From Burkholderiaceae bacterium (GTDB lineage: Bacteria; Pseudomonadota; Gammaproteobacteria; Burkholderiales; Burkholderiaceae_C): a stretch of 64,000 bases of DNA. Each line of letters starts with the position of its first letter. The first letter of the stretch is position 1. Below, one piece after another: positions 18,907-25,698 of this stretch. The DNA is taken from the NCBI GenBank assembly GCA_017992055.1, contig JAGOPK010000001.1, positions 806,001 through 870,000 of the forward strand, given 5' to 3'. The notes below the pieces were generated by a model, which had not been told where the DNA came from, ran no database searches, and worked only from the letters and a program-made list of their open reading frames with translations. The position numbers were made by a program, and so were the translations under genes.

Positions 18907-19839
18907 ATGTCCGCATCCCTGCCCCGCGTCTCCATGCACTTCGACCTGGTCGATCTGCGCCTGATGGTCCATGTGGCCGAATGCAACAGCCTCACCCGCG
19001 GCGCCGAGGCCTCGCACATGTCGCTGCCGGCGGCCAGCACGCGCATCAAGAACCTCGAAGAGGGCATCGGCGCCAAGCTGCTGTACCGCACCAGCCAGGG
19101 CGTGACGCTGACGCCGCCGGGCCAGGCCTTCGTGCACCATGCGCGCGCGGTGCTGGGCCAGATCGAGCACCTGCGTGGCGACATGCAGGAATACGCCAAG
19201 GGCGTGAAGGGCCATCTGCGCGTGTATGCCAACACCACCGCGCTGGGCGAGTTCCTGCCGCCGGTGCTGCGCCGCTACCTGGCCAGCCATCCGGACGTGA
19301 ACATCGACCTGCGCGAGCGCCTGAGCCACGACATCGTGCGCGCGGTCAGCGAGGGCCAGACCGACATCGGCCTGGTCGCCGGCCATGTGCGCACCGAGAA
19401 CCTGCAGGCCATTCCCTACCGCCGCGACCGCCTGGTGCTGGTGGTGCCGGCCGGCCACGGCCTGGCTGGCCAGGCCGACGTGGAGTTTGCCGAGACGCTG
19501 GACCTGGACTACGTGGGCCTGCACGAGGCCAGCGCCATCCATGCCTTCTTGCGCCAGGTCTGCGATGCCTTGCACCGGCCGCTGCGCCTGCGCATCCAGG
19601 TCGGCAACTTCGAGGCCGCGGCGCGCATGGTCGAGGCCGGTGTCGGCGTGGGCATCCTGCCCGAGTCGTCGGCGCGGCGCTATGCGCAGTCGCTGGCCAT
19701 CACCATCGTGCCGCTGCGCGACGACTGGGCGCTGCGCGCCATGCACATCTGCGTGCGCCAGCTGGACGCGCTGCCGCTGTTTGCACGCGACCTGGTCGAC
19801 CTGCTGGTGGCCGACGCCGCCGGCAGCGACGCCACCTAG
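18907..19839 (+). CDS. LysR-family transcriptional regulator
   Basis: This 310-residue regulator has an N-terminal winged helix-turn-helix (about 10-70; LRLMVHVAECNSLTRGAEA, SLPAASTRIKNLEEGIGAKL) and a C-terminal substrate-binding domain with GHLRVYANTTALGEFLP and ARMVEAGVGVGILPES. ATG 18907 has GACAAT nine bases upstream; a second ATG at 18934 would also keep the full DNA-binding domain. It is downstream of the symporter on the same strand, so it may regulate it from a distance, though LysR proteins usually face divergent targets. The TAG stop shares CTAG with the stop of the convergent GGDEF-EAL gene. Confidence 0.85.
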   Translation: MSASLPRVSMHFDLVDLRLMVHVAECNSLTRGAEASHMSLPAASTRIKNLEEGIGAKLLYRTSQGVTLTPPGQAFVHHARAVLGQIEHLRGDMQEYAKGVKGHLRVYANTTALGEFLPPVLRRYLASHPDVNIDLRERLSHDIVRAVSEGQTDIGLVAGHVRTENLQAIPYRRDRLVLVVPAGHGLAGQADVEFAETLDLDYVGLHEASAIHAFLRQVCDALHRPLRLRIQVGNFEAAARMVEAGVGVGILPESSARRYAQSLAITIVPLRDDWALRAMHICVRQLDALPLFARDLVDLLVADAAGSDAT

Positions 19840-21587
19840 GAGCCCGCCGGCGCCAGCCGCCGCAGCAGCGCCGGGATCTGCTCGGCCGGCACCGCCGGCG
19901 AGAACAGCCAGCCCTGCAGCTCGTCGCAGCCCTCCTGCTGCAGGAAGCGGCGCTGGGCCTCGGTCTCCACGCCCTCGGCGACCACGGTCTTGCCCAGGGT
20001 GCGGGCCAGGCCGATGATGGCCCGCACCAGCATGGCATCGGCCTCGTCGTGGGTCACGCCGCGGATGAAGGCGCGGTCCATCTTCAGCCGCGACACCGGC
20101 AACTCGCGCAGATGGCCCAGCGACGAGTGGCCCATGCCGAAGTCGTCCAGCGCCAGCTGCACGCCCAGGCCGGCCAGCCGCTCCAGCAGGGCCTGAGACT
20201 GCTCGCGATGGGTCATGGCCGCGGTCTCGGTGATCTCGATCTCCAGCTGCTGGGCCGGCACCCGCCAGCGCTCCAGCGTGGCCTGCAGCTGCTCGGCAAA
20301 GGCCGGCTGGCGCAGCTGGTGGGCCGAGACATTCACCGCCACGCGCAGCACCAGGCCCTGCTCGCGCCATTGCGCGATCTGGCGGCAGGCGCGCTCGATG
20401 ACCCAGTCGCCCAGGCGCACGATCAGGCCCGAGCTTTCGGCCACCGCGATGAAGCGCGACGGCGCGATCTCGCCCAGCTCGGCATCGTGCCAGCGCAGCA
20501 GGGCCTCGGCGCCCACGGCCTGGCCGGTGCTGGCGCTGAACTGCGGCTGGAAGTGCAGGCGCAGGCCGTCGTGCTCGATGGCGCGCTTGAGCCGGCCCTG
20601 CAGCAGCGCCTTCTCCTCCATCTGCTGGGCCATCTGCACGTCGAACAGCATGTGCGTGCCACGCCCGGCCTCCTTGGCGCGGTACATGGCCATGTCGGCA
20701 TGGCGCATCAGCGTGCGTGCATCCTGGCCGTCGGCCGGCGCGATGACCACGCCGATGCTGGCGCTGGGATAGGTCTCGTGGTGGCCCAGCTGCCAGCTGC
20801 GGCCCAGGGCCTGCAGCAGCTGCTGGGCCATGGCCACCACCTGGCGGCGGTCGGGCGCGTCGCGCAGCAGCACGGCGAACTCGTCGCCGCCCAGCCGCGC
20901 CAGCGCGTCGCCGGAGCGCAGCACGCTGCGCATGCGCTGCGCCACCTCGCGCAGCAGCTCGTCGCCAACATGGTGGCCATGGCCGTCGTTGACCGACTTG
21001 AAGTCGTCCAGGTCGATCAGCAGCACGGCCAGCGGCGCGCCGCCGCGGCGGATCTGCTCCACCGCATGGCCCAGCAGCTCGTTGAACATGTGGCGGCTGT
21101 AAAGCCCGGTCAGCTCGTCGTGCATGGCCAGGTAGCGGGCGCGCTCGTGCATGGCCTGCACCTCGCGCTGGTCGTGCACCACGGCCAGGGCCAGCAGGTC
21201 CTCGCCGTGGCGCAGCATGCCCAGCGACACATCCACCGGCACGTCGTAGCCGTCGTGGTGCCACAGCGTCAGCCGCGGCACGCGGCCCATCGGCCGGTTG
21301 CGCGGCTCGGCGAAGAAGCCGCGCAGGTGCTGGTCGTGGCTCTTGCGCTTCCACGGTGGCAGCAGCATCGACATCGGCTGGCCCAGCAGCGCGGCCAGCG
21401 GCCAGCCGCACAGCGCCTCCAGCGCCGGGTTGGCGCAGGCGATGCGGCCCTGGGCATCGACCATCAGCGCGCCGTCGGGGATCAGCGCGATCAGCTGCGT
21501 GACCTGGTCCCAGGGCAGGCGCGGCGTGGCCGGACGCACCGTGGCGGTGGTCATCGGCGCGGGTGCGGCTGCCGGCGGCTCACCCAT
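19836..21587 (-). CDS. PAS-GGDEF-EAL cyclic-di-GMP protein
   Basis: The 583-residue protein has an N-terminal PAS domain (about 25-140) and a diguanylate cyclase domain with an intact LGGDEF motif. It also has a phosphodiesterase EAL domain with [27 protein letters not shown], the following Lys and VAEGVET. Both active sites look complete, so synthesis, hydrolysis or a switch of cyclic-di-GMP are possible; the usual DDFGTGYSSL reads [13 protein letters not shown] 21587 overlaps the aer stop by eight bases (ATGGGTGA), so it is translationally coupled to the receptor; an internal ATG at 21554 is an alternative start. Confidence 0.9.
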
Positions 21588-23157: not shown

Positions 23158-23284
23158 GTCTGCTCCCGCTGTGCGTCGTACGGCACGACAGCCGCCGGCG
23201 GCCCCGCTGCCACCGGCTGGCGCCTGCACGGCGCGCGGCGATGCTATGCGCAGGATCAGGGTCCCAGCAGGGCCGATGTGCGGC

Positions 23285-23304
23285 GCTGTGAGCCAGATCA
23301 CAGC
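23285..23304 (-). promoter_or_regulatory. Perfect CRP-type operator upstream of aer
   Basis: GCTGTGAGCCAGATCACAGC is a perfect 7-bp-arm palindrome with a 6-base spacer. It contains TGTGA-N6-TCACA, the full E. coli CRP consensus core. It lies in the 169-base gap between the FNR-like gene stop and aer. A TAGCAT hexamer on the minus strand (bases 23246-23241) would place the site about 60 bases upstream of transcription start, the class I activator distance. The likely binder is the adjacent regulator, whose recognition helix is CRP-like. This is inference from sequence. Confidence 0.7.
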
Positions 23305-23326: not shown

Positions 23327-24055
23327 TCAGCGTGGCAGCGGCGGTGGTGGCGGCAGCAGCAGCGCGTGGTTGATGTCCACGCTGCCGCCGCTGCGCCGGC
23401 GCACCACGCCGCGCAGCTCCAGATCCTTCCAGACGCGGTTGATGCTCTCGCGCTGCGCGCCCAGCAGCTCGGCCAGCACGGTCTGGTTGGGCACGCGCAC
23501 CGCGCCGGCCGGCTGCATGCGCGCCAGCAGCTGCAGGGCCAGTGTCAGCCGGTGCTCCAGCCGCGGCAGGCGCAGCAGCAGGCTCCAGTCGGCCAGCGTG
23601 GCGATGACCTGGCGCGTGTGCTGCAGCACGAAGTCCGAGGCAGAGACCGGGAGCTGCACCAGGTCCTGCACCAGGCGCGGTGAAAACTCGCAGGTCGCCA
23701 CCGGCGTCAGCGCCTGCACGGTGAACATGGTCGCGCGCTCGAAGGTGCTGGACTGGCCCAGCAGCGTGGCCGGGCCTATCACCGCAATGGCGCGTTCACG
23801 GCCGGACGCGTCGAGCCGGCGTATGGCCATCAGGCCCAGCTTGACGAAGGCCGTGCGTGCGCCGGCCTCGCCCTGGCGCTGCAGCACCTGGCCGCGCCGC
23901 CACAGCCGTGCCTGCGGCACCATCGCCGCGCTGTCGGGGCCGGCTTGCTGGCGGCGCAGCGTGACCGGGCATTGCGCCGCCACCACGCATTGCGCGCAAG
24001 GCGGGGGGACATGGGCCGGGGGCCGGGGTGGGGCAGAGGGGCAGCGTCTGGGCAT
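23327..24055 (-). CDS. Crp/Fnr-family regulator with FNR cysteines and CRP-like DNA-reading helix
   Basis: The 242-residue regulator has Cys at 20, 23, 29 and 122, the same numbers and spacing (C-x2-C-x5-C, then ATCEFS) as the four [4Fe-4S] ligands of E. coli FNR. It should therefore respond to oxygen. The cyclic-nucleotide-like beta-roll covers about 45-130, the dimer helix 140-160 and the helix-turn-helix 185-215. The recognition helix reads RESINR (202-207). Arg-Glu-x3-Arg is the CRP pattern that reads TGTGA, whereas FNR has Val-Glu-x2-Ser-Arg. ATG 24055 has a GAAGGG upstream. It is followed by its presumptive site, aer and a cyclic-di-GMP gene. Confidence 0.85.
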
Positions 24056-24155: not shown

Positions 24156-25619
24156 TCAGCCGCCGCTGCTGTCGGGGCTGCGCCAGGCGCGCTCGAAGGG
24201 CAGGCGCCAGGCATGCGGCGCGATCAGCTGGTGGATGGACTTCGGCCCCCAGGAGCTCGGCTCGTACAGCCGCACCGGCGGCGGCGATTCCAGCAGCGGC
24301 ACCGACACCTGCCATAGCCGCTCGATGCCCTCGGCGGTGGTGAACAGCGTGCCGTCGCCGCGCATGGCGTCGAGGATCAGGCGCTCATAGGCCTCCAGCA
24401 CCTCGCCGGCCAGGCCGGTGTCGCGCATCGCGAACTGCAGGCTCAGCTTGTCCAGGCGCATGCCCGGGCCGGGGCGCTTGCCGTAGAAGCTGAGCGACAT
24501 CTTGCTGGCATCGGCCAGGTCGAAGGTGAGGTGGTCGGGGCCTTGCGCGCCCACGCCCGAGCCGGGCGGGAACATGCTCTTGGGCGGCTCGCGGAAGGCG
24601 ATGGAGATGATGCGCTGGCCCTCGGCCAGGCGCTTGCCGGTGCGCAGGTAGAAGGGCACACCGGCCCAGCGCCAGTTGTCGATGAAGCACTTCAGCGCAA
24701 TGAAGGTCTCGGTCTCGCTTTGCGCATCGACGCCGGGCTCGTCGCGGTAGCCCACGTACTGGCCACGCACCACGTCGGCCGGCAGGATGGGCAGCATGCT
24801 GCGGAAGACCTTGTTCTTCTCCTCGCTGATCGAGCGCGGCTCCAGCGCCGTGGGCGGCTCCATGGCCATGAAGCCCAGGATCTGGAACAGATGCGTGACC
24901 ACCATGTCGCGGTAGGCGCCGGTCTGCTCGTAGAAGCCGGCGCGCCGGCCCACGGCCAGGGTCTCGGGCACGTCGATCTGCACGTGGTCGATGAAGTTGC
25001 GGTTCCAGATCGGCTCGAACAGGCCGTTGGCGAAGCGGAAGGCCAGGATGTTCTGCGCCGGCTCCTTGCCCAGGAAATGGTCGATGCGGAAGATCTGCTC
25101 TTCGGCAAACACCTCGTGCAGCCGGTGGTTCAGGCGCACGGCGCTGGCCAGGTCGGTGCCGAAGGGCTTTTCCATGATGATGCGCGAGCGCTCCACCAGG
25201 CCGGCCTCGCCGATCAGGCGCACCGCCTGCAGGGCCGCGTCGGGCGGCACGCTCAGGTAGTGCAGGCGGCGGCTGTCCTGGCCCAGCGCGGCCTCGGCCC
25301 GGGCCACGGCCGCGGCCACCGCGGCCGCGCCGGCGCCCAGCGGCACATAGTCCAGCTGGGCGGCGAAGGCCTGCCAGTCGGCCTCGGTCAGGCGGCGGCT
25401 GAAAAACTCGTCCAGCGCCTGGCGGGCGATGCCGCGGAAGGCCTGCTCGTCGCAGTCGTCCAGCGACACGCCGATGATGCGGCAGCCGGGGATGAAGCCG
25501 GCGCTGCACAGGTGGTACAGGCCGGGCAGCAGCTTGCGCCGCGCCAGGTCGCCGGTGGCGCCGAACAGCAGCACCACCTGCGGATGGCGCGGGCCCACGC
25601 CCGGCTGGATCTTGGCCAT
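24156..25619 (-). CDS. zwf: Glucose-6-phosphate 1-dehydrogenase
   Basis: The 487-residue enzyme oxidises glucose-6-phosphate to 6-phosphogluconolactone with NAD(P)+, feeding the pentose phosphate and Entner-Doudoroff routes. The Rossmann motif [11 protein letters not shown] is at about 19-29 and the active-site signature [13 protein letters not shown] with the catalytic His at about 175-190. MEKPFG and the C-terminal segments are all present and the length is normal. ATG 25619 has an AGGAGA site; an in-frame upstream start at 25694 would overlap the Bug gene stop region and lacks family similarity. The usual partners pgl, edd and hexR are not in the window. Confidence 0.95.
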
Positions 25620-25698
25620 GCGGTTCTCCTCGTCTTGCGCTGCGCTACCGCGGGGGCAAGCAAGGTCCGCACCATCCGCGGCGCGGCCGATCACCGGC

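Follow-up and report, generated by a model that had tools for sequence, protein, structure and literature searches.

The regulator locus in the window

The DNA analyzed here is a stretch of 64 kb (hereafter designated as the window), in which a gene for a Crp/Fnr-type regulator, an aerotaxis receptor gene (aer), and a gene for a PAS-GGDEF-EAL protein lie together (Table 1). The regulator gene starts with an ATG at 24055 and its stop codon ends at 23327, and the frame on the plus strand is interrupted by a stop. The coordinates in the earlier note were correct, and we add the strand, which that note did not give. Directly upstream of the regulator is a glucose-6-phosphate dehydrogenase gene (24156-25694, minus strand). 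The product of aer could be aligned from end to end with Escherichia coli Aer, with 39.7% identity over 514 residues, and is regarded as a member of the Aer group.

Table 1. Features of the regulator locus (positions in the window)
Feature	Position	Strand	Basis
PAS-GGDEF-EAL protein, 583 aa; start codon overlaps the aer stop (ATGGGTGA)	19836..21587	-	
aer, PAS-HAMP-MCP aerotaxis receptor, 525 aa	21580..23157	-	Pfam; alignment with E. coli Aer
TAGCAT hexamer resembling a -10 element, 40 nt beyond the box, the centre of which would lie at -60.5	23241..23246	-	
Predicted operator: an exact TGTGA-N6-TCACA palindrome (minus strand: TGTGATCTGGCTCACA)	23287..23302	.	Same place in relatives
Four-cysteine FNR-type regulator with a CRP-type recognition helix, 242 aa	23327..24055	-	ORF, Pfam, tree
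Recognition helix R202-E-S-I-N-R207	23435..23452	-	Alignment, family reading
Codon C122, putative fourth cluster ligand	23690..23692	-	Alignment with E. coli FNR C122; 35/35 members
Codons C20 to C29, putative [4Fe-4S] ligands	23969..23998	-	Alignment with E. coli FNR C20, C23, C29; 35/35 members

The regulator matched the Pfam models cNMP_binding (PF00027; 39.2 bits, 7.1e-10) and HTH_Crp_2 (PF13545; 33.8 bits, 3.2e-8), both above the cut-off, and thus belongs to the Crp/Fnr superfamily. Its cysteines are located at positions 5, 20, 23, 29, and 122. In a column-for-column alignment with FNR from NC_000913, Cys20, Cys23, Cys29, and Cys122 fell on the cluster ligands of E. coli FNR, as the earlier note had proposed from the residue numbers; the identity of the numbers themselves is partly luck, because the N-terminal lengths differ among the relatives. 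Leu154 of the window protein occupies the position of Asp154 in E. coli FNR, which we take to be important for the oxygen-controlled dimer. Therefore, the oxygen response is to be measured rather than assumed. Glu73 and Arg83 of E. coli CRP, likewise taken from NC_000913 (counted from Met), are residues of the cAMP site and align with Gln101 and Thr109 of the regulator, respectively; the contacts to cAMP are not retained, and cAMP is therefore unlikely to be the signal of this protein.

The recognition helix, RESINR, proved to be of the CRP type (R-E-x3-R), as anticipated. Arg202, Glu203, and Arg207 align with Arg181, Glu182, and Arg186 of CRP counted from Met (180, 181, and 185 in the usual CRP numbering) and with Val208, Glu209, and Arg213 of FNR. 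The helix does not have the E-x2-S-R arrangement of the TTGAT-reading FNR, and the boxes associated with its relatives are of the TGTGA type (see below). The three CRP residues aligned with Arg202, Glu203, and Arg207 contact DNA according to PMC1274295. The concern that the protein would be annotated as plain Fnr was only partly apt, as NCBIfam does not name it Fnr: the best NCBIfam match was FnrL, which scored 26.6 bits where 300 are required, so that no equivalog is assigned, and the Fnr model PRK11161 was absent from the five NCBIfam matches of the regulator. Altogether, the protein is probably an FNR-like oxygen sensor with an iron-sulfur cluster, equipped with a CRP-like DNA-reading part, the conserved ligands and the neighboring aerotaxis gene pointing to oxygen as its signal.

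Distribution and phylogeny of the four-cysteine family

A profile of seven relatives was searched against 398 genomes of the bacterial family to which the window belongs. Matches with E-values up to 1e-25 were found in 54 of the 398 genomes, and the four-cysteine family, comprising 35 genomes, was set apart from the rest (E-values of 5.7e-40 or better, the next match being at 4.8e-33). One protein was read per genome (n = 35), and every one of the 35 possessed the four cysteines with the C-x2-C-x5-C spacing, namely the ligand set of FNR. The recognition helices were sorted into RES[IV]NR (8 members), [RH]E[ST][IV]AR (21), PET[TV]SR (5), and RESIQR (1), and 29 of the 35 bear Arg at the position of CRP R180. 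In an alignment of eight members, five helix positions (R, E, S, N, and R) were invariant, so that the motif is more than a chance feature. A ninth RES[IV]NR member (L079) was detected by scanning named contigs, and a genus search added three PET[TV]SR members (8 in total).

Seven relatives were found in the records of Roseateles, Pelomonas, Paucibacter, and Methylibium, six of which are loci already counted, with identical boxes and scores. Twenty genomes of the genus of the window, some of which are incomplete, yielded no orthologue, the sole match being a REMVSR paralogue. A search of 399 genomes at the order level with the clade profile retrieved the copy in the window and, with weaker scores, three proteins of the RE[ST][IV]AR class.

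A tree of 55 sequences was built by a quick method after masking of the recognition helix; two of the sequences, E. coli FNR and L048, appeared as long branches. The four-cysteine proteins were placed on the side of FNR, not of CRP, with an SH-aLRT of 99 and formed a single group with an SH-aLRT of 96. Even with the helix masked, the nine RES[IV]NR sequences grouped together with an SH-aLRT of 99 and seven PET[TV]SR sequences did so with an SH-aLRT of 97, while the RE[ST][IV]AR class did not form a supported clade (SH-aLRT of 57). The PET[TV]SR member L050, the frame of which is irregular and the contig of which ends just past the regulator, was read for its helix but omitted from the tree and from the comparison of the regions upstream of aer. 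A structural model of the regulator, based on an alignment of 33 sequences, had a mean pLDDT of 89.6. Among the 50 Foldseek matches listed, the highest query TM-scores were those of Aliivibrio fischeri holo-FNR (0.74-0.75; 0.51-0.69 for the others); when ordered by E-value, mycobacterial and corynebacterial CRPs, not FNR, came first.

The genome containing the window encodes additional proteins of this superfamily, namely two REMVSR paralogues with CRP-type helices (L002 and L003) and an FNR-like paralogue with a VETASR helix (L004; G000 C9). In the [VLI]ET[AV]SR FNR-like paralogues L004, L051-L058, and L060, the ligand corresponding to C29 is replaced by Ala or Val. In L004, an additional Cys stands six residues ahead of C122, and the ligands of this protein may differ from those of E. 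coli FNR. All four cysteines are kept in another FNR-like paralogue, L059.

A PAS-GGDEF-EAL gene was present in all nine loci of the RES[IV]NR clade and aer in eight of them. In the ninth, L079, aer was not found in the 3-kb flanks, and the box precedes the GGDEF-EAL gene. In the PET[TV]SR members, aer follows the regulator in six of the eight, the remaining two (L050 and L113) being located at contig ends, and a GGDEF-EAL gene follows in all four loci with enough flank (L044, L047, L049, and L111). For the 21 [RH]E[ST][IV]AR loci, a GGDEF-EAL gene was found nearby in 11 (within 1.5 kb in ten and 2.4 kb off in one) and aer in four.

A CRP-type box upstream of the linked aer

The TGTGA-N6-TCACA palindrome lies 24 bp past the stop codon of the regulator, upstream of aer. 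It is the sole exact copy in the window and one of two in the whole genome. Three FNR boxes within one mismatch are present in the window, none of them at the regulator locus. Locus L030 carries TGTGATCTAGATCACA, the CRP consensus.

We compared the regions upstream of aer, cut in the same way, in three sets of loci. The set of unlinked genes consisted of 17 aer homologues from ten genomes with no such regulator within 1.5 kb; three of them are from a genome that belongs to the same order but to a different family, three are paralogues in the window genome, and two are from G023. When aer is linked to a RES[IV]NR regulator, a CRP-type box was found within one mismatch in seven of the eight loci and within two mismatches in all eight, and a single locus had an FNR box with at most one mismatch. 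The corresponding numbers for the unlinked aer genes were 0/17 and 4/17 for the CRP-type box and 6/17 for the FNR box. For aer linked to a PET[TV]SR regulator, they were 1/6, 5/6, and 1/6, respectively. Thus, the aer homologues compared here are often preceded by an FNR-type box, in place of which the regulator-linked copy has one of the CRP type. Upstream of one aer paralogue of the window genome (L097; G000 C25), we found the FNR-type box TTGAGGCAAATCAA; the aer copies of this genome may thus be shared out between two oxygen regulators.

Promoter geometry

A second, exact box was found upstream of the regulator in six of the nine loci of the clade (L006, L027, L030, L035, L036, and L046). 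A hexamer matching [CG]A[CG]AAT starts exactly 21 nt after this own-promoter box in all six and, if taken as the -10 element, puts the box centre at -41.5 in each, the position of class II activation for CRP and FNR. Six hexamers at one offset were never seen in 20000 mononucleotide shuffles, the maximum being two. The own-promoter box is absent from L045 and L079. The window locus has neither this box nor a TTGAT-type second box, and with no box upstream of the regulator, we do not predict that it controls its own gene in the window genome.

On the side of aer, the box is followed by CAGAAT at a distance of 40 or 41 nt in five loci (L006, L027, L030, L036, and L046). The centre of the box after the regulator was located at -61.5 in L006, L027, L030, and L036, at -60.5 in the window and L046, at -62.5 in L079, and at -71.5 in L045; spacings that differ by about a helical turn are expected of a class I activator. 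Among the nine clade loci inspected, no clear -10-like hexamer was found after the downstream box in L035, and L030 has a second -10-like hexamer at an offset of 20. In L006, L027, L030, and L036, a TTGAT-type box follows the CRP-type box at a distance of 23 bp from start to start, with its centre near -39.5. Tandem boxes at the same distance were also found in the PET[TV]SR loci L049 and L111, where the box is of the GTGAC type.

TGTGA-N6-TCACA sites across genomes

The eight genomes of the RES[IV]NR clade contain 17 exact TGTGA-N6-TCACA sites against one for a reversed control pattern. Nine of the 17 are situated at the regulator locus, and in G167, G232, and G134 the site at this locus is the sole one in the genome. 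The remaining eight off-locus sites correspond to 1.0 per genome (control, 1), and in 22 other genomes of the bacterial family, where our searches detected no regulator of this kind, there are 35 exact sites, or 1.6 per genome (control, 8). Exact sites are therefore enriched at the regulator locus and not in the rest of the clade genomes. This concentration, the promoter-like positions of the boxes in the relatives, and the lack of a box within one mismatch upstream of the 17 unlinked aer genes support the CRP-like half sites predicted in the earlier note. As exact sites outnumber the reversed control everywhere, something else may use them, or palindromes may be commoner than chance. The degenerate pattern TGTGMKCNNSNKCACA was drawn from the boxes at the locus and is thus partly circular (the exact-site counts are not). 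It matched 25 distinct sites in the eight genomes of the clade, including 14 at the locus, whereas six genomes lacking the regulator had nine.

We considered a wider regulon and rejected it on the basis of the sites counted, namely the exact and TGTGMKCNNSNKCACA sites: outside the locus, exact sites occur no more often than in genomes where the regulator was not found, and hence the target set appears to be local. None of the ten degenerate and none of the six exact off-locus sites listed has a -10-like hexamer at a distance of 21 or 41 nt, and no aer or GGDEF-EAL frame was found within 1.5 kb of the six off-locus exact sites examined. One off-locus site (L116) has a -10-like hexamer at 20 nt. 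Another, exact site (L068; G055 C17) is close to a frame with a weak match to the Crp/Fnr family, perhaps a self-regulated paralogue.

Boxes in the sister classes

Among the exact-arm palindromes upstream and downstream of the 21 RE[ST][IV]AR relatives, none was common to more than three, although these proteins bear the Arg as well. L040 of this class has a TGTGA box at one mismatch. Upstream of the RETIAR member L031, TGTGATTGATCACA was found, in which the TGTGA halves are separated by a gap of four instead of six, and the RETIAR-type regulators of L008, L021, L026, and L043 have the non-palindromic stretch ACATTTTGTTGC upstream in common.

In the PET[TV]SR loci L044, L047, L049, L108, and L111, a box of approximately CGTGAC-N4-GTCACG lies between the regulator and aer, possibly representing a second specificity within one family. 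A simple rule in which Arg gives G and Pro gives T at the base before TGA did not hold: five of the six PET[TV]SR aer loci (L044, L047, L049, L108, and L111) keep G, and only L010 has TTTGATCGAGGTCAAA. The proteins that bear Pro but have G-keeping boxes imply that Arg alone does not set that base. Rodionov and colleagues described a correlation of R180 with G3 in the motifs of the CRP/FNR family (PMC1274295), which is not strict here if the PET[TV]SR boxes are true operators.

Proposed mechanism and alternative explanations

We propose that the regulator is probably an FNR-type [4Fe-4S] sensor that binds TGTGA-N6-TCACA at low oxygen and acts as a local activator of aer and the PAS-GGDEF-EAL gene. 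The residues suggest that an oxygen-labile [4Fe-4S] cluster would be held by C20, C23, C29, and C122. At low oxygen, the cluster-bearing dimer would bind TGTGA-N6-TCACA through its CRP-type helix, as the operator footprints suggest. In six of the nine relatives, the regulator would activate its own expression from the class II site (-41.5); aer and the PAS-GGDEF-EAL gene would be activated from the class I-like site, which is centred at about -61.5 and, in the window, at -60.5. We infer the cluster, the oxygen response, the DNA binding, and the sign of regulation from sequence features. Several observations weigh against this reading: Leu154 in place of Asp154; the lack of a palindrome common to more than three of the 21 RE[ST][IV]AR relatives, which also bear the Arg; the G-keeping boxes beside the Pro-bearing PET[TV]SR proteins; the REMVSR paralogues as possible users of the box; the excess of exact sites over the control outside the locus; and the leading place of CRPs in the order by Foldseek E-value. 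The whole nevertheless has the appearance of a small oxygen circuit private to this locus and not of a general Fnr. More tentatively, and with somewhat less confidence than doubt, we suggest that the locus forms a self-contained low-oxygen module, in which the re-specified helix would insulate the regulator from the global FNR and CRP regulons, the aerotaxis receptor and the c-di-GMP enzyme would be switched on together, and the output would be tuned in four relatives by the FNR-like box 22 bp away (centre to centre), usable by a second oxygen regulator.

The signal may be other than oxygen. FNR clusters react with nitric oxide, the ligands alone are conserved, and D154 is replaced by L154, so that an FNR-like regulator on CRP-type sites could sense nitric oxide, thiol redox, or another metal. 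We regard this as unlikely, since both the FNR spacing of the ligands and the linkage to an Aer receptor indicate oxygen or the energy state as the signal. It is less probable still that the TGTGA boxes belong to another protein of the CRP family, such as the REMVSR protein of L002 or L003, and that the four-cysteine protein reads something else. The two REMVSR paralogues of the window genome do carry CRP-type helices, exact sites occur at a low rate also in genomes without the clade (the 35 sites in 22 genomes), and the off-locus exact site of L068 is near a CRP-family frame. On the other hand, REMVSR paralogues are also present in genomes without the clade (L012 in G008 and L013 in G023), yet none of the 17 unlinked aer genes, two of which are in G023 and three in the window genome, has the box within one mismatch, and the box adjoins the regulator and, in six loci, also lies within the regulator's own promoter.

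The smallest chance is given to a plain FNR that reads TTGAT-N4-ATCAA, the change in the helix being neutral. The extra FNR-like box at L006, L027, L030, and L036 and the FNR box at six of the 17 unlinked aer genes would fit such a protein, but the window lacks the extra FNR-like box, what the clade conserves is a box of the CRP type, and in the window genome L004, with its VETASR helix, could use the FNR boxes. We retain the FNR-type sensor acting on TGTGA-N6-TCACA as the preferred explanation. If it is correct, the regulator would be a natural oxygen sensor with a DNA specificity other than that of FNR, the operators of which can be read beside its gene, and a search for FNR boxes would miss its targets. 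The promoter positions predict both class I and class II activation, and a link of oxygen to swimming direction and c-di-GMP becomes testable in Roseateles-type bacteria.

Comparison with known systems

The regulator resembles FNR of E. coli and A. fischeri (structures such as 9qll, 8qto, and 9qly) in the cluster ligands, their spacing, the fold, and the placement in the tree, and differs from it in having RESINR in place of VETISR, L154 in place of D154, CRP-type boxes, and apparently local targets. With E. coli CRP, it shares the R-E-x3-R helix and the TGTGA-N6-TCACA box, but it possesses the four cysteines, and Q101 and T109 replace E73 and R83. No paper on this family or on the triad of regulator, aer, and GGDEF gene was found among the titles and abstract openings of the open-licence literature.

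The swapped specificity put forward in the earlier note is supported by the boxes at the locus but is not unprecedented, as HcpR and Bacillus Fnr illustrate. In PMC1274295, Desulfovibrio HcpR with R180 is assigned the predicted motif wTGTGAnnnnnnTCACAw, and delta-proteobacterial relatives with Ser or Pro at R180 are assigned FNR-like TTGAC motifs. HcpR, likened here by its description only, is thus similar in R180 and in the CRP-like motif, and it regulates hcp. Bacillus Fnr is likewise a [4Fe-4S] regulator with a similar consensus, TGTGANNNNNNTCACA, as given in Table 1 of PMC8151001, a Bacillus cereus paper citing the Bacillus subtilis Fnr regulon; its ligands are not the E. coli FNR set but three C-terminal cysteines and an aspartate, according to PMC3520743. 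As for the targets, PMC4634722 describes Rhodobacter capsulatus FnrL as a repressor of two aerotaxis receptors. As an FNR-type regulator of chemotaxis genes and two aerotaxis receptors, FnrL is comparable with the regulator proposed here to act on aer, whereas the many targets, the TTGAT-type boxes, and the repression of motility genes set FnrL apart. CRP-type sites thus have precedents, and the case described here unites the proteobacterial FNR ligand set with CRP-type boxes in an apparently local module for motility and c-di-GMP.
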